From IMG/VR virus record IMGVR_UViG_3300032296_000353, positions 1 to 36,326 of that record: a stretch of DNA of 36,326 nt; one strand, given 5' to 3'. The position numbers and the translations under genes are program-made. The stretch is from a virus. The notes under the pieces are model-generated. The model worked only from the letters and a program-made list of their open reading frames with translations, did no database searches and was not told the origin of the DNA. How positions within the stretch are numbered: the first letter of the stretch is position 1; each line of letters starts with the position of its first letter. This document shows, one piece after another, positions 1-36,326 of the stretch.

Positions 1-123
1 GTTATTGCGTCCTAATGCTAAATGGGAAATATCTAATACGATGTTTACACGTTGGGATGATCCTAGACCATGCCCTAGTTGGGATGAGGTAGTTTGGGTA
101 ATGGATAAGATTCGTGAGTTTGA
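1..123. repeat. Terminal direct repeat, copy 1 (circular overlap)
   Basis: These 123 bases are identical to the last 123 bases of the window (36204-36326). The match is bounded only by the two ends of the sequence. An open gene reads straight through the join in frame, so this is the overlap of a circular or circularly permuted assembly, giving a unique length of 36,203 bp. It could also be a genuine terminal redundancy, but 123 bp inside a gene makes an assembly overlap more likely. Confidence 0.95.
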
Positions 124-4523: not shown

Positions 4524-5258
4524 ATGGGTGGTGGCGGCGGTAGTCAAAAAAGTACAACAACGACGAGTATTGATCCTCGTATAGCTCCGTATGTTGAATT
4601 TGCCTTAAAAGAAGGTCAGCGACTTTATCAAGGTGCTGGTCCTAAATTCTTTGAAGGGCAGAACTATGTCTCTCCTTCAGAGGCTACTCAACAATCGCTT
4701 CAAATGGCTAGGGAACGTGCTCTAGGCGGTTCTCCACTCATTAAGGCTGCACAACAAGAGACACTAGATACAATCGCAGGACGAGGCGTTAATCCATTCC
4801 TAGCGGGTGCTTTAGAGCAGACGAATCGATTAGCTGGTGAGCAGTACAACAAAAACATTCAAGGTTTACAGTCTCAGGCTTCCTCTGCTGGTCGTTATGG
4901 CTCTAGTGCTATGGGTCAACAAGCAGGTCAGGCTCAGGACATCTTTGCTCGTGCTTTAGCGGAACAAGGCGGTCAGTTGGCTTATGGTTCTGCTGAGGCT
5001 GAACGTGCTCGTCAAATGGCTGCGGTTAATGCTGCCCCCGGAATGGCTAATGCTGATTACTTTGATATTAATCAGTTATTGAAAGTTGGTCAGGCTGGTG
5101 AAAGCTACGATTTATCTAAATTGCAAGCTGATATGAATCGCTTTAACTACGAGCAGAACTTGCCACAAATGAAACTAAGCAATTATGCGAATCTGTTTTC
5201 TAATGTTCCTCAAGGAAGTCAGACTACGCAGACTGCTACGCCGACAGGAGGCAAATAA
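4524..5258 (+). CDS. Internal virion / ejection protein candidate
   Basis: A 244-residue protein starting MGGGGGSQKSTTTTS, a poly-Gly/Ser/Thr head common in podovirus internal proteins. The body is rich in Gln, Ala and Gly (for example GLQSQASSAGRYGSSAMGQQAGQAQDIFARAL, here given only by its position, about residues 111-142) and is predicted helical. The C-terminus has NRFNYEQNLPQMKLSNYANLF (about 203-223). Proteins of this shape sit next to the ejection set in many podoviruses. No enzymatic motif is visible. It begins 2 bp after the previous stop and ends in TAATG. Confidence 0.55.
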   Translation: MGGGGGSQKSTTTTSIDPRIAPYVEFALKEGQRLYQGAGPKFFEGQNYVSPSEATQQSLQMARERALGGSPLIKAAQQETLDTIAGRGVNPFLAGALEQTNRLAGEQYNKNIQGLQSQASSAGRYGSSAMGQQAGQAQDIFARALAEQGGQLAYGSAEAERARQMAAVNAAPGMANADYFDINQLLKVGQAGESYDLSKLQADMNRFNYEQNLPQMKLSNYANLFSNVPQGSQTTQTATPTGGK

Positions 5259-21712: not shown

Positions 21713-22174
21713 ATGAAAGAGTGTCCTATAGTCTGCTCAGACATCCAGCTTAATCTCAAGAACCGAGATTGGGCATTTAAGAACGTAGGCTATGGTCCTG
21801 CTAATCCTGATTCACCAGAGGACTTCTGGCAGATTCGCGCTAAGGAATGGGCTACTAGTCCTAAAAACGCTCAGACGATGAAATGTGGTAATTGCAGCGC
21901 ATTTATCCAGACTCCTGAAATGATGGAATGTATCGTTAAAGGTATTCAGGGCGAAGAATCAGATAACGAGACGTATGCTAACGAGGTCGTGGGTAGTGCT
22001 GAACTAGGATACTGCGAGTTGTTCGAGTTCAAGTGTGCTGCTGATCGTACCTGTTCAGCGTGGTTGGTTGGTGGACCTGTAACTAAGGCTATGACTGACA
22101 AGCAAAAGACTATGTTGAAAATGGCTAAACTGGAATATTCCAATGACGATGACGAATATTCCGAAGACGCTTAA
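21713..22174 (+). CDS. Conserved Cys-rich phage protein
   Basis: A 153-residue protein with eight cysteines: C4 and C8 (ECPIVC), C58 and C61 (KCGNC), C73, C101, C108 and C114 (YCELFEFKCAADRTCSAW). The arrangement looks like two metal or Fe-S sites. Proteins of this type occur in many aquatic phages, some called high-potential iron-sulfur-like; that link is uncertain. The C-terminus is acidic (NDDDEYSEDA). Its last 32 bp also encode the start of the methyltransferase gene. Confidence 0.7.
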   Translation: MKECPIVCSDIQLNLKNRDWAFKNVGYGPANPDSPEDFWQIRAKEWATSPKNAQTMKCGNCSAFIQTPEMMECIVKGIQGEESDNETYANEVVGSAELGYCELFEFKCAADRTCSAWLVGGPVTKAMTDKQKTMLKMAKLEYSNDDDEYSEDA

Positions 22175-22691
22175 TCTAGGTTCCGGTAAGGATTGGAAAG
22201 ATTCATACTTTAATGCTGATATATTACTCAGAGTTAATCCTGACTGGTGGTGCGACATATCTAAAATCGAGTTTGGTCAGGTTATCGACAGTCCTAGATT
22301 TGGCAAGGTTACGATAGAGAAGGGAATGTTTAAGAAAATCGTTGCAAATGACGTTTTAGAGCATATACCTGACTTAATTCAAGCAATGACTAACTGTAAG
22401 GACTTGCTAGAGGTTGGTGGAGAGTTTCACATTAACGTACCTTACGAACTGTCTTTAGGTGCTTGGCAAGACCCGACTCACGTTCGAGCGTTCAACGAGA
22501 ATAGCTGGCTGTACTATACAGAGTGGCATTGGTATCTAGGGTGGGAAGATCGGTTTAACCTAACGTCGATGGAGTTTAAGCTGTCAGAGTTTGGTCAGGA
22601 GTTGTTAGATAAAGGTACTCCTGATAGCGAAATCTTACGTACTCCTAGAGCAGTAGATTCTATGAAGGTGATCCTTTGCAAGCAATCGTAA
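22143..22691 (+). CDS. SAM-dependent methyltransferase (class I)
   Basis: A 182-residue protein with LNLGSGKDW (motif I, residues 10-18), IVANDVLEHIPDLIQAM (about 66-82) and GGEFHINVPYE as the motif IV-VI region, so a class I SAM methyltransferase of the type found in sugar-modification clusters. The substrate is unknown. It starts inside the previous gene and its 3' end overlaps the glycosyltransferase by 16 bp, so the two are probably made together. It is small and lacks a separate target-recognition domain; DNA methylation looks unlikely. Confidence 0.8.
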   Translation: MTMTNIPKTLNLGSGKDWKDSYFNADILLRVNPDWWCDISKIEFGQVIDSPRFGKVTIEKGMFKKIVANDVLEHIPDLIQAMTNCKDLLEVGGEFHINVPYELSLGAWQDPTHVRAFNENSWLYYTEWHWYLGWEDRFNLTSMEFKLSEFGQELLDKGTPDSEILRTPRAVDSMKVILCKQS

Positions 22692-23392
22692 TTGCCACAG
22701 TAAATAGCCCAAGCATCCACGTATTATTGGAGAGTATTAATCAATATGCAAGAGACTTGCCAGTTTACATTAGTGGAAATAGTGTGGAGTTATGGGGAGA
22801 AGTTAGAGGCAGACTTAAAGATAATCGAGTCATATTCCGACCAAATTTATCTGCCAATTTCGGAGATGCGTATAATGCAATTGTCTCTTATGCCTTTGCC
22901 GATGGGAACTACGATTCACTAATCATTGCTAATGACGATGTAGTATTGGCTCCCGATACTATTGAAAAGATGCAAGCAGATTACAAGTACGTCAGCAAGT
23001 CATTTAAGGTTGGATTCTTAGGTGCAAGATCAGATTACGTACTACCTGCACAGAATATACGAGTAGCAGAGGAAGATGACGTATTCTCAGCGTTAAAGTG
23101 GGAAAGCGAATTGCACATTAAGATGACTGATGTTATCGCTCCTATATTTGCAGCTATAAGTAAGGAAGCATGGGATGTGGCACAATTCCCTAGCACTAAT
23201 TGGTATTCAGACAATATAATATGTCACGATCTAAGCAAAGCAGGATATTTTCACTTTGTCAGTAGAGGTTACGTTCATCATGCAGGATCGCAGACGGTTG
23301 GAAACGACTTTGCTAAGTGCCATGAAGAACCAAGAGAGTGGATAAAGCAGCACAGACCAGATATGTACGAGGTTTTTTATGGCAGAGTATAG
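22676..23392 (+). CDS. GT2-like glycosyltransferase
   Basis: A 238-residue protein with a GT-A fold pattern: an N-terminal strand (AIVIATVNSPSIHVLLESIN), NLSANFGDAYN (about 57-67), and LIIANDDVVLAPDTI (82-96) with the DxD-like NDD for UDP-sugar and metal. A later section (APIFAAISKEAWDVAQFPST) matches the usual acceptor-side loop. It probably transfers a sugar to a glycan or virion protein. It starts with TTG after AAGGTG and overlaps the methyltransferase. The end overlaps the polyvalent-type gene by 14 bp. Confidence 0.75.
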   Translation: MQAIVIATVNSPSIHVLLESINQYARDLPVYISGNSVELWGEVRGRLKDNRVIFRPNLSANFGDAYNAIVSYAFADGNYDSLIIANDDVVLAPDTIEKMQADYKYVSKSFKVGFLGARSDYVLPAQNIRVAEEDDVFSALKWESELHIKMTDVIAPIFAAISKEAWDVAQFPSTNWYSDNIICHDLSKAGYFHFVSRGYVHHAGSQTVGNDFAKCHEEPREWIKQHRPDMYEVFYGRV

Positions 23393-25460
23393 GGTTCCAA
23401 CTCAAGCAGAATTAGACCGACTGCTATATATGCAGGGGCTTCAAGGTAAAAGCAATCAACAGATTATTGATGAGAATTTAGCTCGCGGTACGACTATTCA
23501 ATCATTGCCAGAGAATTTCTTTCAAACTGCATCGGCTGGTGCTCGTCGTGTTGGTGACTATGTAAATCAGGCAGGTAATGTCCAGCAAATAGTAAATAAG
23601 CTATTCCCGTCCAATATTGGCAATTCTCAGCGTCAGGTTCCTATACCTACCAGTTTTAACTTTGCTCCTAAACAGGCTCCAACTGGTGAAATAATACCTG
23701 CTGGATTGCAGACTCAGAGCGTTCCTGTAGCAAGCATATTGCAAGCAATTAAACCTGCTGATGTATTAGGCATTAGCGGTGCTGAACGAACTTATGGTGC
23801 TTTAGGTGCTGGCAAGGCTCCGCAGCCTTTGGATGTTGTAGATACGTTAGGAGTTGGTGCTATTGGATTAGGGGCTACAGGTGGGCTTTTAAAGGCTACT
23901 AAAGGGCTTCCTATTGGCATGAGCATACAAGAGGCTAAAGGATTGTTGCAAACTGCCCCTAGATCAGAGATTGGCTTTTATAGTGCTGTTGAACAAGCTG
24001 CAATGGCAAGTCCTAGAAAGTCTGCAACTGGTCAGGCTTTTCTAAATGACATTATGAAAGGTCAGGATGTACGTGCTGACGAAATCAAATGGATGGGGTT
24101 AGATGATTATCTAAAAGGAAAGCAAAACGTAACTAAACAGGAAGTTCAGGATTACATTGCTAATAACCGAGTAAATGTTAAAGAAGTTCAGTTAGGTGAT
24201 ACCAAATTCAATAAATTATCTGATGAAGAACTTATCAATGAATACATTAGGATTAGAGGATACGATCCTATTTCTGATGGTGAGGCATTGACTAGGAATG
24301 AGATGCTTTACGAATTAGAAGGAATGAATAGGACTGAATCAGGGAGTACAAAATTCGGTCAATACACATTACCCGGTGGTGAGAACTACCGTGAGTTGCT
24401 GCTGACGATGCCAGCTAAACCATTAACTGAATCTGAAGCAAGAATAGTATTAGGTGCTGCTCCAAATGCTAAATTATCAGCAGCAGATATAGCTTATGCA
24501 AGTAGAAAAAATGTTGACGAATATAAATCTTCACACTTCGACCAGCCAAATATTCTAGCTCACTTGCGAGTCAATGATCGTGTAGATTCTGATGGTAAGA
24601 AGATGTTGCTAATTGAAGAAGTTCAAAGCGATTGGCATCAAGCTGGTAGGGATAAGGGCTACTCAACAAAAGAGTTACAAAATAATTTAAAAGAATACGA
24701 GGCTTTATCTAGAAAATATGCAATTAAACAAGAATTGTCGCTTGATGAATATAATAGGCTACAAGAGTTGCGACCACTTGTTTCTGGGAAAGCTGGCGGA
24801 GTACCAGACGCTCCATTTAAAGACACATGGTATCAATTAGCATTAAAGAGAGCTATTCAACACGCAGCAGAGAACGGCTATGATCGTATCGGATTGACAA
24901 CAGGTAGTCAGCAAGCAGCTAGGTTTGATTTAAGTAAGCAAGTAAATGAAATTACTGTTCCTATGGTTAATTCTGATGGCACAAGATCAGTAAGGATTAC
25001 TCCTACTACTGGAACAAGCATAAAACTAATGGTTGATAAAGATGGCGTAGTTACTGGATATGGCTCTGGAAGCACACAATTTTCAGGCAAGAAATTAAAT
25101 GAAGTTATCGGAAAAGAAATGTCTGATAAAGTTATGAAAGCAGAGCCAGAGACTAATTTCTCTGGTCTTGATCTTCAAGTTGGCGGCGAAGGCATGAAGA
25201 AATACTATGACGAGATATATCCTAAGTTCTTAGACAAGTACGGCAAGAAGTGGGGAGCTAAGATAGGTGATACTACTATTACAACAGGACGATCAAATGT
25301 AGGCGGTATGCCTTCAATGTATCCAGATAAAGAGCCGATACGTTACATAGATATAACTCCAGAGATGAAAGCAGGAGTATCTAAAGGACAACCACTATTC
25401 GCAGCAGTTCCAGCAATACCAGCAGCAGGACTACTTGCACCACAGGAAAAACGTAGATAG
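23379..25460 (+). CDS. Polyvalent-type phage protein (LPD-domain), possibly ejected
   Basis: A 693-residue protein with two halves. Residues 1-190 hold a short helix (YRVPTQAELDRLLYMQGLQG), linkers and a Gly/Ala hydrophobic stretch (VDTLGVGAIGLGATGGLLKA), as in ejection proteins. Residues about 340-690 contain blocks typical of the large polyvalent protein-associated domains: FDQPNILAHLRVNDR, LLIEEVQSDWHQAGRDKGYS, KDTWYQLALKRAIQHAAENG, YDRIGLTTG, DLQVGGEGMKKYYDEIYPKF, and IDITPEMKAGVSKGQPLF. In other phages these blocks sit in giant multi-domain proteins injected with the DNA. The chemistry is unknown. Confidence 0.7.
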   Translation: MAEYRVPTQAELDRLLYMQGLQGKSNQQIIDENLARGTTIQSLPENFFQTASAGARRVGDYVNQAGNVQQIVNKLFPSNIGNSQRQVPIPTSFNFAPKQAPTGEIIPAGLQTQSVPVASILQAIKPADVLGISGAERTYGALGAGKAPQPLDVVDTLGVGAIGLGATGGLLKATKGLPIGMSIQEAKGLLQTAPRSEIGFYSAVEQAAMASPRKSATGQAFLNDIMKGQDVRADEIKWMGLDDYLKGKQNVTKQEVQDYIANNRVNVKEVQLGDTKFNKLSDEELINEYIRIRGYDPISDGEALTRNEMLYELEGMNRTESGSTKFGQYTLPGGENYRELLLTMPAKPLTESEARIVLGAAPNAKLSAADIAYASRKNVDEYKSSHFDQPNILAHLRVNDRVDSDGKKMLLIEEVQSDWHQAGRDKGYSTKELQNNLKEYEALSRKYAIKQELSLDEYNRLQELRPLVSGKAGGVPDAPFKDTWYQLALKRAIQHAAENGYDRIGLTTGSQQAARFDLSKQVNEITVPMVNSDGTRSVRITPTTGTSIKLMVDKDGVVTGYGSGSTQFSGKKLNEVIGKEMSDKVMKAEPETNFSGLDLQVGGEGMKKYYDEIYPKFLDKYGKKWGAKIGDTTITTGRSNVGGMPSMYPDKEPIRYIDITPEMKAGVSKGQPLFAAVPAIPAAGLLAPQEKRR

Positions 25461-25484
25461 CATGACATCCAGAGGATAATGCAA
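25461..25484 (+). repeat. Intergenic repeat, copy 1
   Basis: CATGACATCCAGAGGATAAT and the following GCAA directly follow a TAG stop and include the ribosome site of the 25479 gene. It matches 25707-25730 at 18 of 24 positions, with the ends identical. The two copies flank one small gene. Confidence 0.55.
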
Positions 25485-25706
25485 ATGAATGCAATAGAAC
25501 TATCAGTAGGAGTATATGCAGCTCCAGAATGTATTACTCAATGGCAAAAAAGCATACCAAAGAGAAAAGATGGAAGATTAGATAGACGTAATCCAGATGC
25601 AAAGGAATTCTATAGATATATTGATAATATGGAATATCTAAGTATTCAAGCAATGCAGAATGATGAGCCATTTAGATTAATGAGTAAGTCTGAGTGGTGG
25701 ATTTAG
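25479..25706 (+). CDS. Small protein between two spacer repeats, unknown
   Basis: A 75-residue protein. Starts ATG CAA ATG (25479 or 25485). Sequence features: IELSVGVYAAPECITQWQKS, then RRNPDAKEFYRYIDNMEYLS and a Trp-rich end (SKSEWWI). No domain recognised. It lies between two similar spacers (25461-25484, 25707-25730), and may have been inserted between the polyvalent gene and the packaging genes. Confidence 0.55.
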   Translation: MQMNAIELSVGVYAAPECITQWQKSIPKRKDGRLDRRNPDAKEFYRYIDNMEYLSIQAMQNDEPFRLMSKSEWWI

Positions 25707-25732: not shown

Positions 25733-26065
25733 ATGGAAACAAACGAAGTTAAAGAAACAAATAAAAACTGGAAGGTTGGGGATGGAACAGCAGGACCCGG
25801 TAGACCTTCTGGAGTACCTAATAAGAGTACGGCAGTAGTGCGTAATGCTATTGCTACGCTACTAGAGAAGAACGTGCCTTACATGGACAGATGGCTACAG
25901 AGGGTAGCTGAAGGCGATGAGGTCTATGGACTAAAGCCTGATCCTGCTAAGGCATTGGACTTAATGCAAAAGCTAAGTGAGTACCATATACCTAAGCTAG
26001 CTAGGACTGAGGTAACAGGTATAGACGGTGCACCACAACAGCATGTGGTTACATGGCAGAAGTAA
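25733..26065 (+). CDS. terS: Terminase small subunit-like protein
   Basis: A 110-residue protein starting ETNEVKETNKNWKVG and then GPGRPSGVPNKSTAVVRNAI, a basic Gly-Arg-Pro motif followed by a helix, as in many small terminases and DUF5681-like proteins. DPAKALDLMQKLSEYHIPKL is a helical segment. It overlaps the large terminase gene by 13 bp. Small terminases bind the packaging site as rings. The role is mainly from position just before the large subunit; the sequence alone is not diagnostic. Confidence 0.65.
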   Translation: METNEVKETNKNWKVGDGTAGPGRPSGVPNKSTAVVRNAIATLLEKNVPYMDRWLQRVAEGDEVYGLKPDPAKALDLMQKLSEYHIPKLARTEVTGIDGAPQQHVVTWQK

Positions 26066-27327
26066 TCGAGATCGCTTACAAGCCACGTGAGCAGCAAAGG
26101 CTTATTCATGAGGCTATAGACAAGCATAGGTTCACAGTAGTAGTGGCTCATCGTCGTATGGGCAAGACTGTTAGCGCGATTAACCATCTAATCAAGGCTG
26201 CCATTGAGTGCACTAAACAAAACCCACGATTCGCCTATATTGCTCCAACTTATGCTCAATCCAAACGTGTGGCATGGGATTACCTGTTGGAATTTACTCG
26301 TCCTCTTGGGGCTGTGGCTAACATCTCAGAGCTTAGGGTTGATTTTTGGGGTAGGCGCATTAGTCTTTACGGTAGCGATAATGCTGATAGCTTGCGTGGG
26401 CAGTACTTTGATGGCGTTATCCTTGATGAAATAGGCGACCAGAATCCAAAGATATGGAATGAGGTTATACGTCCAGCGTTAGCGGATAGGAATACAGACG
26501 AGTCTCCTACTTGGTGTCTATTCATTGGGACTCCAAAAGGTAAAAATCATTTCCTAGACTTCCGTGATAGAGCTAAGACTGCTGAAGGTTGGGCGTTGCT
26601 AGAGTTTAAGGCTAGTGAAACTAAGATTCTTAGCGAGAAGGAACTTTGGGCTGCTCGTAAGGAGATGGGTGACGATAGGTATTTTCAGGAATTTGAGTGC
26701 AGCTTTGATGCCGCCGTTACTGGGAGCTATTTTGGGCAGATTATCAACGATCTTGAGGCGAAGAACCGGATCACCACTATCGAACGTGATGACTTATGTA
26801 AGTCTTATGTTGCTTGGGATTTGGGGATTAGCGATTCTACTTCTCTGTGGGTTGCTCAGGTGGTTGGAAAAGAGGTACGACTCATTGACTTCACGGAGAA
26901 CCACGGAGTCGGTTTGGACTGGTATGTACGCTGGCTCAAAGATAACGGCTACGAAGGCTACACGCAGTTCTTGCCTCATGATGTCGAAGTCAGAGAACTA
27001 GGCACAGGAAAGAGCCGTAAAGAGGTTTTACAGGAAGCTGGACTGGATATAACTGTCGCTCCTCGTTTATCGATTGCAGACGGCATACAAGCCACCAGAA
27101 GGCTATTGCCGCAATGTTGGTTCGATCATAAGACTAAGACAGGTCTGGATGCTCTCAGGAACTATCGTAGAGAGTATAACGAACGTCAGCAGGTGTTCTA
27201 TGACAAGCCGCTTCACGACTGGTCTAGCCATGCTTCAGACGCTTTCAGGTACTTAGCGATAAGCCTTGACCAAGACGAGACTTCATGGCAGTCAGATTTG
27301 CCCATTAACACTAAATGGATTGTATAA
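26053..27327 (+). CDS. terL: Terminase large subunit
   Basis: A 424-residue packaging motor. The N-terminal ATPase has VAHRRMGKT (31-39, a Walker A variant), GVILDEIGD (121-129, Walker B with D125/E126) and LFIGTPKGK (156-164, coupling motif). The C-terminal RNase-H-like nuclease has VAWDLGISDST (253-263, D256) and SSHASDAFRYLA (391-402, D396). The protein drives DNA into the prohead and cuts the concatemer. The headful versus cos mode cannot be read from this. A TATAAT lies across the end of the gene. Confidence 0.93.
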   Translation: MAEVIEIAYKPREQQRLIHEAIDKHRFTVVVAHRRMGKTVSAINHLIKAAIECTKQNPRFAYIAPTYAQSKRVAWDYLLEFTRPLGAVANISELRVDFWGRRISLYGSDNADSLRGQYFDGVILDEIGDQNPKIWNEVIRPALADRNTDESPTWCLFIGTPKGKNHFLDFRDRAKTAEGWALLEFKASETKILSEKELWAARKEMGDDRYFQEFECSFDAAVTGSYFGQIINDLEAKNRITTIERDDLCKSYVAWDLGISDSTSLWVAQVVGKEVRLIDFTENHGVGLDWYVRWLKDNGYEGYTQFLPHDVEVRELGTGKSRKEVLQEAGLDITVAPRLSIADGIQATRRLLPQCWFDHKTKTGLDALRNYRREYNERQQVFYDKPLHDWSSHASDAFRYLAISLDQDETSWQSDLPINTKWIV

Positions 27328-27354: not shown

Positions 27355-29457
27355 ATGATGGATGAAGGCAAAGTAAAAGGTATTGTTGAGAACGAAATAG
27401 ATAACTCTATTGGCTATCTTGACACCGAAACTACCGAAGATCGTAAGAGGGCATTAGAGTATTACCTAAGATATCCTTACGGTAATGAGCAAGAAGGTCG
27501 CAGCCAGATCGTAACTGGTGAGGTAGCTGAGGCTATCGATGGTGCATTGCCACAATTGATGCGTGTATTTACGACTACTGAAGATATTGTCTATTTTGAG
27601 CCTAAAGGTCCACAAGACGAGGAATCAGCTAGACAGGCTACGGACTACTGTAATTGGGCTTTCTATCGTGATAATGATGGGATGCTTATCCTTCACAACT
27701 GGTTTAAAGATGCTCTGCTGCAAAAGGTAGGCGTAGTTAAGTCGTACTGGGATGAAAAGACAGACGTAACTAAGGAAGAATACGAGAATCTATCAGAGGA
27801 TGAGTTAGCTCTATTGCTATCGGATCAGACTCTAAAGGTTATCAAGCAGAAAATAGAATACACAGAGCAAGTTGATATGATGGGTAATGTTATCCAGATT
27901 CCTAGCTTTGAAGTGTATGTACAACGTATTAAAGAATCAGGTCAGGTAAAGATTGAGAATGTTCCTCCTGAAGAATTCCTTATCTCTAAGTCAGCCAAGA
28001 CTATTGAAGATGCTAGCTTTGTAGCGCATCGTCGGTTGATGACTCGTTCAGAGTTAATTGCTATTGGCTACGATCAGGATACAGTTGACGCTTTGCCAAC
28101 TTATAATGATCTTGAGTTCAGTCCTGAGCGTATTGCTCGTTTCCCTAACGGTGAGCAGCCAGACCAAAACACTAGCTTAGACTTCTCTATGCAGACGCTA
28201 GAGGTGTACGAGTGCTATATCCGTATTGATGAAGATGATGACGGTATTGCTGAGTTGCGGCGTATTGTCTATTGCGGTTCTGAGATACTTGAGGACGAGG
28301 AAACAGACTATGTTCCATTTCACTCTATCTGTCCTATTCCTATTCCGCATAAGTTCTTCGGTCAATCGCTGGCAGATCGAACGATGGATATTCAACTCCA
28401 GAAGTCCACGATTACACGACAGAGCTTAGACAATCTGTATCTAACTAACAACAATCGAGTCGGCGCTGTAGATGGTCAGGTCAACATGGATGACTTGCTC
28501 AATGCTACTCCGGGTGGTGTTATCCGCTTAAAGAATCCTAATGCGTTGGTTCCTCTAACGGTTCAGAGTACGTTCGGTCAGGCTATGCCTATGCTGGAAT
28601 ACTTGGATGCAGTTCAGGCTAAACGTACAGGTGTTAGCGATTCACAGCAAGGACTTGATCCAGACATTCTGAGTAATGTTACGGCTACGGCTGTAGCTGC
28701 CATGATGAAGTCTAACTCTGGCAAGTTGGAGTTGATTGCTCGTATCTTTGCTGAGACAGGCGTAAAGAGTCTGTTTAAAGGCATCTTGCATCTATTGGGC
28801 AAGTATCAGGACAAGCCTCGTGTCGTTCGTATGCGTGGTAAGTACGTTCAGTTTGACCCTAGAACATGGGCTAACCAGTACGACATCAGCGTTAATGTGG
28901 GTCTAGGTTCAGGTGACAGAGATCAGAAGTTGGCTATGTTGCAAATGGTTCTAGCCAAGCAAGAGCAGATCATTCAGCAGTATGGTCCATCTAATCCTTT
29001 GGTATCTATCGGTCAATATCGCAATACTCTAGCGAAGTTCATTGAATCGGCAGGTTTCAAAGATGCTAACGAGTTTATGAATGAAATTACGCCAGAGCAA
29101 AATGCTGCGTTATCTCAGCCACAGCCTCCATCCCCAGACGCACAGGCAGAGGTTGCTAAGATGCTGGCAGAGGTGGAAAGAGAAAAGACACAGGCTAAGT
29201 CTCAGATTGATGCGGCGAAACTTGACCTTGAGAGGCAAATGCTTGAAGCCGAATTTACCCGAAAGGGCATAGAAATCAATATGAAGAACCAGAAGGACTC
29301 GGCTGAGATTCGTATTAAAGAAGCTGAGTTAGCAGTTAAGCAATTGCAAGCTGTACTGGCTATGGACTTAGCTGACGAGGACACAAAGAACAAGCAGACT
29401 GAGTTGACGTTGAAAGCTCTGCGTGAACTAGGTGCATTGACTAAGGGTATGGCGTGA
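27355..29457 (+). CDS. Portal protein (podovirus P22/SU10-like)
   Basis: A 700-residue portal. N-terminal blocks such as RALEYYLRYPYGNEQEGRSQ and IVTGEVAEAIDGALPQLMRV (about residues 29-80) and FKDALLQKVGVVKSYWDE are typical of the long P22/SU10-like portals. The core includes GQSLADRTMDIQLQKSTITR (about 340-359) and RTGVSDSQQGLDPDILSNVT (about 423-442). The C-terminal 120 residues form a charged coiled coil, the crown/barrel, beginning near AEVAKMLAEVEREKTQAKSQ. It forms the 12-mer at the head vertex. Start ATG 27355 with AGAGGAAC upstream; an ATG at 27358 is equally possible. Confidence 0.88.
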   Translation: MMDEGKVKGIVENEIDNSIGYLDTETTEDRKRALEYYLRYPYGNEQEGRSQIVTGEVAEAIDGALPQLMRVFTTTEDIVYFEPKGPQDEESARQATDYCNWAFYRDNDGMLILHNWFKDALLQKVGVVKSYWDEKTDVTKEEYENLSEDELALLLSDQTLKVIKQKIEYTEQVDMMGNVIQIPSFEVYVQRIKESGQVKIENVPPEEFLISKSAKTIEDASFVAHRRLMTRSELIAIGYDQDTVDALPTYNDLEFSPERIARFPNGEQPDQNTSLDFSMQTLEVYECYIRIDEDDDGIAELRRIVYCGSEILEDEETDYVPFHSICPIPIPHKFFGQSLADRTMDIQLQKSTITRQSLDNLYLTNNNRVGAVDGQVNMDDLLNATPGGVIRLKNPNALVPLTVQSTFGQAMPMLEYLDAVQAKRTGVSDSQQGLDPDILSNVTATAVAAMMKSNSGKLELIARIFAETGVKSLFKGILHLLGKYQDKPRVVRMRGKYVQFDPRTWANQYDISVNVGLGSGDRDQKLAMLQMVLAKQEQIIQQYGPSNPLVSIGQYRNTLAKFIESAGFKDANEFMNEITPEQNAALSQPQPPSPDAQAEVAKMLAEVEREKTQAKSQIDAAKLDLERQMLEAEFTRKGIEINMKNQKDSAEIRIKEAELAVKQLQAVLAMDLADEDTKNKQTELTLKALRELGALTKGMA

Positions 29458-34520: not shown

Positions 34521-36152
34521 ATGTTTGCTTATACTAAGTTAATGCAAGCGTTGGCTGTAAGTGGTGGCGGTAATTACACCGTCATTCAGCGTTTTCTTGC
34601 TTCTGGAACGTGGACTGCTCCGACAGGTGTAACAAGTGTTAATTACCTTGTTGTAGCTGGTGGTGGTGGTGCTGGAAACGGTGGAGGTGGCGGCGGTGCT
34701 GCTGGTGGTTTTAGGACAGGCACAGGATTTAGCGTAACTGCTGGTACTGATTACACTATTACAGTTGGTGCTGGTGGTGCTGGAAAATCAAGTGCTTCAA
34801 ATGGTTCTGGTGCGGTTGGTTCAAATTCAGTATTTTCAACCATTACTTCTAACGGCGGTGGTTTGGGTGGAGGTGGCGGTTCTCCTACTGGCGGTGGCAA
34901 TGGTGGTTCAGGAGGCGGTGGTGGTGGAGGTGGAACTGGAACCGCAACGGCTGGAACTGGGAACACTCCTTCAACGTCTCCAAGTCAGGGAAATAATGGT
35001 GGAACTGGATATGCTCTTTCTGGTGTTGTCGGCATTGGTGGAGGTGGTGGTGCTGCCGGAGCAACTGGTGGAAACGCACAAACATCTTCTCCTTATTTAG
35101 CTGGTAATGGTGGAAATGGAACTGCATCAACTATTTCGGGTTCATCAGTAACCTATGCTGGTGGTGGTGGTGGTGGATTATTTTCAATTGGTGGAACTGC
35201 TGGTACTGGTGGAACTGGCGGCGGCGGTAATGGTGCTGCAAATACTAGTTCTGGAATTGCTGGAACTACAAATACTGGAAGCGGTGGTGGAGGTGGCGGT
35301 GGTAATGGTGGTGCAGGTGGTGATGGCGGCTCCGGCATAGTCATTCTTTCTTACACCGTAGCATCACAAACAGTCTTTACGTTTAAATCATCTACTGCTT
35401 GGGTAGCACCAACAGGCGTGACTAGCGTTGATTATTTAGTCGTTGCAGGTGGTGGCGGTGGTGGTAGTACTTTAGGTGCGGGTGGTGGTGCTGGAGGATT
35501 TAGAACCGGAACAAGTTTATCTGTAACTGCTGGTACAGAATATACAATTACTGTTGGAGCAGGAGGTGGAGGAGCACCAGTAAATACGGCTAATGGAACT
35601 TCCGGTGGAAATTCAATATTTAGCAGTATTACTTCTAATGGCGGTGGTGGAGGTGGCGGCAATACTTCAGGGCCAGCTACATCTGGTGCTTCAGGAGGGT
35701 CAGGCGGTGGAGGCGGTGGAGGCACTGGAACAAATACTGCTGGAAGTGGCAATACACCATCAACTTCACCATCTCAAGGTAGTAATGGAGGTGCTGGCTC
35801 AAGTGCTACTTGGTATGGTGCTGGTGGAGGTGGTGGAGCAAGTGCTGTAGGTGGAGCTGGTTCTGGAACAGTTGCTGGAAATGGTGGCAATGGAACTGCA
35901 TCATCTATTTCAGGCTCATCTGTAACATACGCTGGTGGCGGCGGGGGTGCTGGATATGGCCCTGGTTCAGGTCAAAGCGTTACTTCTGGAACTGGTGGAA
36001 CAGGCGGCGGTGCTAATGGTAATTCTGGCGGTGCTGGAAATGCTGCTACAGCGAATTTAGGTGGTGGTGGTGGAGGAGGTGGATATACTGGAACTGGTCA
36101 AGTAGGTGGTTCTGGCGGCTCTGGCATCGTAATTATTAAAATTAACCAATAA
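34521..36152 (+). CDS. Glycine-rich adhesin with two tandem units
   Basis: A 543-residue protein made of two similar units, each starting W-(T/V)-APTGVTSV-(N/D)-YLVVAGGGG (W31 and W294), then GGFRTGT, YTITVGAGG, SITSNGGG, poly-Gly/Ala/Ser runs, SSVTYAGGGG and GGSGIVI. The period is 263 residues (789 bp). Such long glycine-rich stretches can fold as polyglycine-II helices, as in the receptor-binding adhesin (gp38) of T4-like S16, so this is a good candidate for the host-binding tip. It is followed after 4 bp by the small junction-spanning gene. Confidence 0.75.
   Translation: MFAYTKLMQALAVSGGGNYTVIQRFLASGTWTAPTGVTSVNYLVVAGGGGAGNGGGGGGAAGGFRTGTGFSVTAGTDYTITVGAGGAGKSSASNGSGAVGSNSVFSTITSNGGGLGGGGGSPTGGGNGGSGGGGGGGGTGTATAGTGNTPSTSPSQGNNGGTGYALSGVVGIGGGGGAAGATGGNAQTSSPYLAGNGGNGTASTISGSSVTYAGGGGGGLFSIGGTAGTGGTGGGGNGAANTSSGIAGTTNTGSGGGGGGGNGGAGGDGGSGIVILSYTVASQTVFTFKSSTAWVAPTGVTSVDYLVVAGGGGGGSTLGAGGGAGGFRTGTSLSVTAGTEYTITVGAGGGGAPVNTANGTSGGNSIFSSITSNGGGGGGGNTSGPATSGASGGSGGGGGGGTGTNTAGSGNTPSTSPSQGSNGGAGSSATWYGAGGGGGASAVGGAGSGTVAGNGGNGTASSISGSSVTYAGGGGGAGYGPGSGQSVTSGTGGTGGGANGNSGGAGNAATANLGGGGGGGGYTGTGQVGGSGGSGIVIIKINQ
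34593..35345 (+). repeat. Adhesin repeat unit 1
   Basis: First of two tandem coding units in the glycine-rich adhesin; spans from FLASGTWTAPTG to GSGIVI. The matching unit starts 789 bp downstream with no net length change. Confidence 0.75.
35382..36134 (+). repeat. Adhesin repeat unit 2
   Basis: Second tandem coding unit, from FKSSTAWVAPTG to GSGIVI. Anchor codons (W31/W294 and the final GSGIVI) keep the same 789-bp offset. Confidence 0.75.
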
Positions 36153-36156
36153 ACAC

Positions 36157-36326
36157 ATGGAAACTAAACTCTACAGAATGTATGGCATTGATATGGCAAT
36201 GTCGTTATTGCGTCCTAATGCTAAATGGGAAATATCTAATACGATGTTTACACGTTGGGATGATCCTAGACCATGCCCTAGTTGGGATGAGGTAGTTTGG
36301 GTAATGGATAAGATTCGTGAGTTTGA
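36157..36326 (+). CDS. Tail-fibre-associated small protein, 5' part (continues at 1-208)
   Basis: ATG at 36157 lies 4 bp after the adhesin stop. The N-terminal peptide (ETKLYRMYGIDMAMSL) leads in frame into the sequence that restarts at position 1. The unique part is 36157-36203; from 36204 on it is the copy of the first 123 bp. Together with 1-208 it forms a complete 84-residue gene. The role is inferred from its place after the adhesin. Confidence 0.85.
   Translation, partial: METKLYRMYGIDMAMSLLRPNAKWEISNTMFTRWDDPRPCPSWDEVVWVMDKIREF
36204..36326. repeat. Terminal direct repeat, copy 2 (circular overlap)
   Basis: Identical to bases 1-123. See the first copy: it marks the overlap of the circular molecule, not a second gene copy. 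Confidence 0.95.

Follow-up and report, generated by a model that had tools for sequence, protein, structure and literature searches.

A stand-alone phage protein with a constant N-module and a predicted GNAT-like core whose loops are exchanged as cassettes beside the terminase genes

Architecture of the encoded protein

The virus contig IMGVR_UViG_3300032296_000353 of IMG/VR, analysed here over its full 36,326 bases (positions 1 to 36,326; hereafter the window), has the gene content of a tailed phage and a P22-style gene order around an open reading frame (ORF) for a protein of 693 amino acids (aa), which is the subject of this report. The original prediction, made from the sequence alone, had described this protein as a stand-alone polyvalent-type protein with an ejection-like front half, and the ORF in question is present and intact. 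The sequence blocks that it had quoted (LLIEEVQSDWHQAGRDKGYS, YDRIGLTTG and DITPEMKAGVSKGQPLF) occur verbatim and are not chance resemblances, since they fall within blocks conserved across 63-83 relatives. Core alignments resolve six conserved blocks and five variable inserts downstream of an N-terminal module (N-module). The conserved blocks coincide in order with the predicted elements beta1, beta2, beta3-beta4, alpha3-beta5, alpha4-beta6 and beta7 of a GNAT fold, and the inserts with the connections between them. The parts of the protein, all on the plus strand, are as follows.

23379-25460, plus strand: complete ORF with ATG start, 693 aa, comprising the N-module and a core of predicted GNAT-like fold
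23379-23951, plus strand: N-module, residues 1-191, the constant part; putative packaging or delivery part, modelled with low confidence
23835-23918, plus strand: Gly/Ala-rich hydrophobic stretch, residues 153-180, not above composition-matched chance
23952-24194, plus strand: conserved block c1, residues 192-272, helical lead-in and predicted beta1
24195-24353, plus strand: hypervariable cassette ins1, residues 273-325, at the alpha1-alpha2 position of the GNAT fold
24354-24416, plus strand: conserved block c2, residues 326-346 (LPGGENYRELLLTMP), predicted beta2 with invariant G333, G334, Y337 and E339
24417-24527, plus strand: hypervariable cassette ins2, residues 347-383
24528-24662, plus strand: conserved block c3, residues 384-428, predicted beta3-beta4 with invariant H386, H395, R397, E414, Q416, S417 and D418; candidate active-site strip
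24663-24797, plus strand: hypervariable cassette ins3, residues 429-473, a helical hairpin
24798-24926, plus strand: conserved block c4, residues 474-516, PFKxxW motif and predicted alpha3-beta5
24927-25172, plus strand: hypervariable cassette ins4, residues 517-598
25173-25286, plus strand: conserved block c5, residues 599-636, predicted alpha4-beta6 with invariant G605, Y610 and P615
25287-25334, plus strand: variable loop ins5, residues 637-652, the beta6-beta7 loop
25335-25403, plus strand: conserved block c6, residues 653-675 (IRYIDITPEMKAGVSKGQPLF), predicted beta7 and C-terminal helix

The hydrophobic Gly/Ala stretch to which the original prediction had drawn attention (VVDTLGVGAIGLGATGGLL, starting at residue 153) is present and conserved in place, but when the N-terminal 192 residues are shuffled, 36% of the shuffles reach its hydropathy (1.51 over 19 aa), so that it is no convincing transmembrane segment. 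The N-module has no relative among named phages, nor among the other window proteins tested. Judged by substitution patterns it is more strongly constrained than the core: in the closest pairs the ratio of nonsynonymous to synonymous substitution rates is 0.08-0.11 for the N-module versus 0.39-0.50 for the core, the latter figure being inflated by the exchanged cassettes.

Relationship to polyvalent proteins

The window protein gives no match above cut-off to Pfam or NCBIfam, the polyvalent profiles that had been suggested as a check (PF18760, ART-PolyVal, and the LPD models in Pfam) included, and none to the PDB either by sequence or by profile. The only matching family model is phrog_7348, labelled 'endolysin' (residues 377-631, E 1e-26). 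As the match is confined to positions 1800-2070 of a giant-protein profile of 2564 positions, the label is a misleading artefact that belongs to another part of that profile and has no bearing on lysis. One query recovered relatives on 448 stretches of IMG/VR, and another on at least 590; the distant members L089 and L082, used as queries, gave no match in the viral_contigs scans.

The C-terminal two-thirds of the protein (residues ~192-675) also occur as a module inside proteins of 847-4659 aa, in several of them beside ART-PolyVal, LPD1, LPD23, LPD37, LPD38 or MuF_C domains, which bears out the polyvalent connection made by the original prediction. For example, a 2387-aa protein of Dolichospermum phage Dfl-JY45 has two copies of the module and four ART-PolyVal stretches, and a protein of at least 3917 aa from a Hydrogenophaga bin combines it with MuF_C, LPD37, six ART-PolyVal stretches and LPD38. 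In the Pseudomonas aeruginosa plasmid p382 (L093) the module lies in a protein with 12 ART-PolyVal stretches and LPD23, at residues 3044-3477 of the part analysed (coding sequence ~5000 aa). It is also carried by gp34 of the Pelagibacter phage HTVC028P, whose gene lies between internal-protein genes; in two HTVC028P-type relatives (L107 and L108) the gene is broken into several ORFs, by decay or by sequencing errors. No curated domain model of Pfam, LPD models included, covers the module in the giants examined, and the viral-structure matches of the core model are all large phage proteins, some of them named ART-PolyVal or LPD. By these comparisons the C-terminal region is an uncatalogued module of the polyvalent-protein domain pool.

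Polyvalent proteins have been described in detail by Iyer et al. 2017 (PMC5512222), who noted that such domains also occur solo, close to structural genes of phages, and reported two RimI-like GNAT families in these proteins, one of them next to ART; if the core module is one of these two families, its fold was partly anticipated. The window protein shares with polyvalent proteins the core module and a late or virion gene neighbourhood; it differs from them in having one effector rather than 2-15 domains and in matching no Pfam LPD model. The module is thus available here as a separate, single effector, a minimal form suited to study, as had been proposed. It does stand alone by the terminase genes, but this separateness is not unusual: the closest relatives are mostly stand-alone proteins of 650-870 aa, and the placement is a conserved arrangement. 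Among open-licence papers we found no publication on the core module, on its loop shuffling or on the effector exchange beside the terminase genes described below.

Predicted fold and candidate active site of the core

A structural model of the core (residues 192-682, built with 78 sequences) had a predicted local distance difference test (pLDDT) score of 87 and a predicted template modelling (pTM) score of 0.78. In a structural comparison with VIA-align all 50 of the 50 listed entries had a GNAT fold; their Z scores ranged from 7.0 to 9.2, and 109-148 residues could be aligned in colinear order over model residues ~74-478. The best match was the C-terminal domain of ICL2 (Z 9.2, root mean square deviation (rmsd) 3.5, 147 aligned), and the entries included AtaT (Z 9.1, rmsd 4.0, 126 of 160 aligned) and Tetrahymena Gcn5 (Z 8.4, rmsd 3.2, 133 of 163 aligned). 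An earlier full-length model derived from a different alignment gave the same type of match list. In the predicted model the elements follow one another as beta1-alpha1-alpha2-beta2-beta3-beta4-alpha3-beta5-alpha4-beta6-beta7, the order of the GNAT fold. A GNAT fold of the core is likely, given that the match list is uniform, that the elements align colinearly and that most of a GNAT domain is covered.

Several observations weigh against this assignment or against a standard acetyltransferase chemistry. Foldseek against the PDB with the same core model yielded consistent but weak acetyltransferase matches (best E 0.047), and a Z near 9 is only moderately above the background stated for the tool. 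Profile-profile comparison (hhalign) with 15 GNATs, whether with the full profile or with the inserts removed, stayed at the level of decoys and shuffled columns. The R/Q-x-x-G-x-G/A pyrophosphate loop is absent before alpha3, where PFKxxW is found instead, and the Gly-containing segment QAGRDKGY is branch-specific, not being conserved in the Pelagibacter-phage branch; given these two facts, coenzyme A (CoA) may not be the donor. As neither profile-profile comparison nor Pfam supports it, the GNAT call is drawn solely from predicted structure, and for want of profile-profile support and of the CoA motif we describe the core as GNAT-like in its fold without classing it among the GNATs. The original prediction had suggested comparison with ADP-ribosyltransferase, nuclease and protease folds; the predicted fold is GNAT-like and none of these, and none appears among the VIA-align rows, although its list does not exclude them because VIA-align only re-ranks Foldseek candidates. 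In summary, the core resembles GNATs such as Gcn5, NatD, the toxins AtaT, KacT and TacT and the ICL2 C-domain in its predicted fold, element order and candidate Glu/Tyr pair, and differs from them in lacking sequence or profile similarity and the R/QxxGxG/A motif, as well as in its five inserts and its extra invariant PFKxxW and H..H.R / ExQSD signature.

Certain residues remain invariant or nearly so at ~30% identity across the family (window numbering): G333, G334, Y337 and E339 on beta2; H386, H395 and R397 on beta3; E414, Q416, S417 and D418 at the end of beta4; P479 and W484 at the entry to alpha3; and G605, Y610 and P615 on alpha4. GNATs often keep a general base on beta4 and a general acid on alpha4. 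E414 (beta4) and Y610 (alpha4) are candidates for these two roles, and the active site is probably formed by the beta2-beta4 strip of the model with Y337, E339, H395, R397, E414, Q416, S417 and D418, together with Y610 on alpha4.

Alternatively, the core might be a non-catalytic ligand-binding or scaffolding domain of GNAT fold within a head or packaging protein, whose loops touch fast-evolving partners in the virion or terminase complex. The missing CoA loop motif would agree with this, as would the presence among the top structural matches of the C-terminal domain of Mycobacterium tuberculosis ICL2, a GNAT-fold, acetyl-CoA-sensing regulatory domain (PMC6788997). The strongly invariant polar residues look catalytic and argue against it, and, taking also into account the evidence from the loops and from the locus given below, we consider a non-catalytic role rather unlikely.

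Exchange of loop cassettes within the core

Inserts ins1-ins4 are hypervariable, and their variation is organized in cassettes. Among 127 non-redundant proteins, clustering at 60% identity yields 40 alleles of ins1, 43 of ins2, 41 of ins3 and 36 of ins4, and 117 distinct ins1-ins4 combinations are found. For 566 pairs the core identity is at least 90%; of these, 305 have no cassette in common, 171 have one, 65 two, 12 three and 13 all four. Because the sequences are partly related and the clusters single-linkage, these counts describe a pattern rather than constitute a formal test. Spearman correlations are 0.29-0.38 between cassette and core identity and 0.14-0.25 between cassettes, versus 0.65 between core and N-module.

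Individual exchange events can be traced at the DNA level. Between L270 and L276 the conserved blocks are 97-100% identical and ins1 and ins4 95-99%, with ins3 at 52%, a switch of a single cassette. The window's ins4 shares 98% DNA identity with that of L003, where the flanking blocks share 84-91% and the N-module 66%; similarly, its ins1 is 97% identical to that of L005 between flanking blocks of 82-84%. Hence, on the alignments, the cassettes assort almost independently and move between backbones. A few of them recur at another insert position (for example ins1 of L024 and ins3 of L232; 65% identity over 40 aa), which suggests that loops can also jump between insert sites.

This variability sets the gene apart from its neighbours. 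The window and L024 are 92-95% identical in helicase, glycosyltransferase-like (GT-like) protein, terminase large subunit (TerL) and portal protein, versus 57% in the 693-aa protein, in which 39% of 25-aa windows fall below 35% identity. Such low-identity windows make up 17-39% in the 693-aa family and 0-3% in TerL, portal and scaffold in all pairs tested; in more distant pairs they reach 19% in the GT-like protein and 15% in the helicase. The lack of hypervariability in terminase, portal and scaffold of the same genome pairs speaks against loops that follow fast-evolving partners of a structural domain. Metagenome chimerism was considered as a source of the mosaicism and is unlikely, because many independent contigs switch at identical block borders and the terminase, portal and scaffold genes are uniform.

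Exchange of the whole effector and the gene neighborhood

In the window the gene directly follows methyltransferase-like and weakly GT-like genes and directly precedes the terminase, portal, scaffold and coat genes, far from the ejection-like genes, just as the original prediction had placed it. The neighbouring genes are:

22143-22691, plus strand: methyltransferase-like gene (phrog_6636, Methyltransf_23), constant left flank of the exchange locus
22676-23392, plus strand: weakly GT2-like gene, constant left flank, overlapping the 693-aa ORF by 14 bp
25733-26065, plus strand: presumptive small terminase gene, from its position and a weak phrog_15261 match, right flank
26053-27327, plus strand: terminase large subunit (phrog_2)
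27355-29457, plus strand: portal protein (phrog_1216)

The GT-like neighbour reaches PF00535 only at E 0.007, below cut-off. Scaffold (phrog_3927) and major head protein (phrog_1328) are likewise encoded downstream of the 693-aa ORF, and the ejection-like genes lie at about 4.5-9.4 kb, with a match to the DNA-ejection protein phrog_4287 at 4524-5258.

A scan with the N-module alone retrieved 27 loci, and these carry one of three different C-terminal modules. The GNAT-like core is present in 14 of them; ten (L320, L323-L325, L327-L332) have another module with the signature FRAVHDAFGHGIRGNSFG...ETRGQNSFVNY, which matches phrog_3170 where tested (L320, L331); and three (L326, L335, L336) have ART-PolyVal above the Pfam cut-off. 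Wherever the neighbours are present these loci share one order, namely GT-like gene, N-module with its variable partner, terminase and portal. The borders of the exchange are visible between the window and L320, whose N-modules are 89% identical: DNA homology of 90% extends over 22676-23861, ends at about residue 161, is absent from 23861 to 25704 and returns at 25705, ahead of the terminase genes. The same effector exchange with a different N-module is seen in another lineage (L311), and the phrog_3170-type domain occurs together with the GNAT-like core in giant proteins (L085 and a Nostoc phage lysin). A protein of Rhodococcus phage E3 with a phrog_3170-type domain is annotated as structural.

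It is chiefly because one constant carrier is found with three or more effectors, a recognisable ADP-ribosyltransferase among them, that we interpret the GNAT-like core as an effector. A structural role of the core, to which the tight linkage to terminase and portal genes might otherwise point, is also hard to reconcile with an ADP-ribosyltransferase taking its place at this locus. The constancy of the N-module under three C-terminal modules is as expected of a putative delivery or packaging part; this gives the 'ejection-like front half' of the original prediction indirect support, and the weak hydrophobic stretch adds little.

Two side observations concern the alternative effectors. Relatives of the phrog_3170-type module are found in 202 phage records, mostly of mycobacteriophages. 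The three ART-PolyVal versions (L326:5001-6413, L335:3281-4666, L336:5001-6500) look mosaic by eye, with conserved ends and a quite different central ~70-100 aa.

The combination of a constant N-terminal part, exchangeable C-terminal effectors and a DNA-packaging neighbourhood recalls the MuF toxins (Jamet et al. 2017, PMC5576092), and the protein could accordingly be pictured as a polymorphic toxin of a temperate phage, delivered against competitors and accompanied by cognate immunity. Unlike MuF toxins, however, the window family has no MuF domain (Pfam, for the window protein), lacks a consistent downstream immunity-like ORF in many relatives, and diversifies also inside the effector by loop cassettes. 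Indeed, in many relatives the terminase gene starts 8-85 nt past the stop codon, too close for an immunity ORF to fit in between; in the window a 75-aa ORF follows the gene, for which the loci show no relative, and the constant upstream GT-like and methyltransferase genes are not effector-specific. A toxin of this kind therefore appears quite improbable. The 75-aa ORF itself lies at 25479-25706, between the 693-aa gene and the presumptive small terminase gene; a tagcatgacaYc..-like sequence follows both its stop codon and that of the 693-aa gene, as though the insertion of this ORF had brought along a second copy of the junction.

Beyond the window lineage, a terminase gene lies downstream of the family gene in 57 of the first 80 loci (some of them near-identical). 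In about eight loci the gene comes immediately after TerL, with the portal gene next wherever this was checked; elsewhere its neighbour is an internal virion protein gene (phrog_6651), or it is found after a major head protein gene or at the end of the tail module. The family gene is thus always near head, packaging, tail or ejection genes and bound to no single one; this constant nearness would fit a late, packaged protein. The same survey bears on the proposal of an unpackaged intracellular modification factor, acting for instance with the methyltransferase and GT-like proteins on phage DNA or envelope glycans. The window lineage invites it, as the gene shares 14 bp with the GT-like gene and comes after the methyltransferase-like gene, but other lineages have the gene without these neighbours, in the TerL-portal gap or by the internal virion and major head protein genes, and giant polyvalent proteins combine the same module with MuF_C and ART domains. 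Such a factor is in our view improbable.

With regard to the remainder of the genome, window positions 1-123 recur exactly at 36204-36326 as a direct terminal repeat of 123 bases, and the genome accordingly appears to be closed, at ~36.2 kb. A protein with two Gly_rich_2 stretches and a phrog_2295 match is encoded just ahead of the terminal repeat (34521-36152), and a 2-oxoglutarate (2OG)-Fe(II) oxygenase gene at 205-813.

Proposed role and implications

We somewhat favour the interpretation that the 693-aa protein is a minimal single-effector polyvalent protein, in which a constant N-module carries an exchangeable effector, here an enzyme-like domain of predicted GNAT-like fold, with loops recombined for target recognition. 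The sequences themselves show the module borders, the occurrence of the module in polyvalent proteins, the exchange of effectors, the shuffling of cassettes and the linkage in the genome, and the fold is predicted; from these we infer packaging, injection, catalysis and target recognition along the following lines. The protein would be made late with the head genes, and the N-module would get it packaged into the capsid and/or delivered into the host. Once released into the next host, the effector would act early in infection by modifying or binding a variable host factor, and the ins1-ins5 loops around the fold probably decide which host factor or allele is recognised. Recombination between phages, for which the conserved blocks would serve as homology arms, replaces loops wholesale and so spreads new ones, and at times the whole effector is swapped for an ADP-ribosyltransferase or a phrog_3170-type domain. 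That the protein is specifically a virion-delivered GNAT-like enzyme with a non-canonical donor site, its specificity being set combinatorially by four or five independently exchanged cassettes and its relatives bearing several warheads on a common delivery module, is a tentative possibility.

Polyvalent proteins are usually giants whose domains are not separately assayable, whereas the window family presents one domain on one carrier and is abundant. It also offers natural experiments, since some sister phages are nearly alike apart from this gene, others apart from single cassettes or the whole effector. Exchanging natural alleles could reveal the target read by each loop and tell whether delivery is signalled by the N-module. 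Should the loops indeed be shuffled for recognising targets, the family would provide a counterpart, at the level of protein, to exchangeable recognition domains; it would also imply that a diverse and so far undescribed target in the host is met early in infection.

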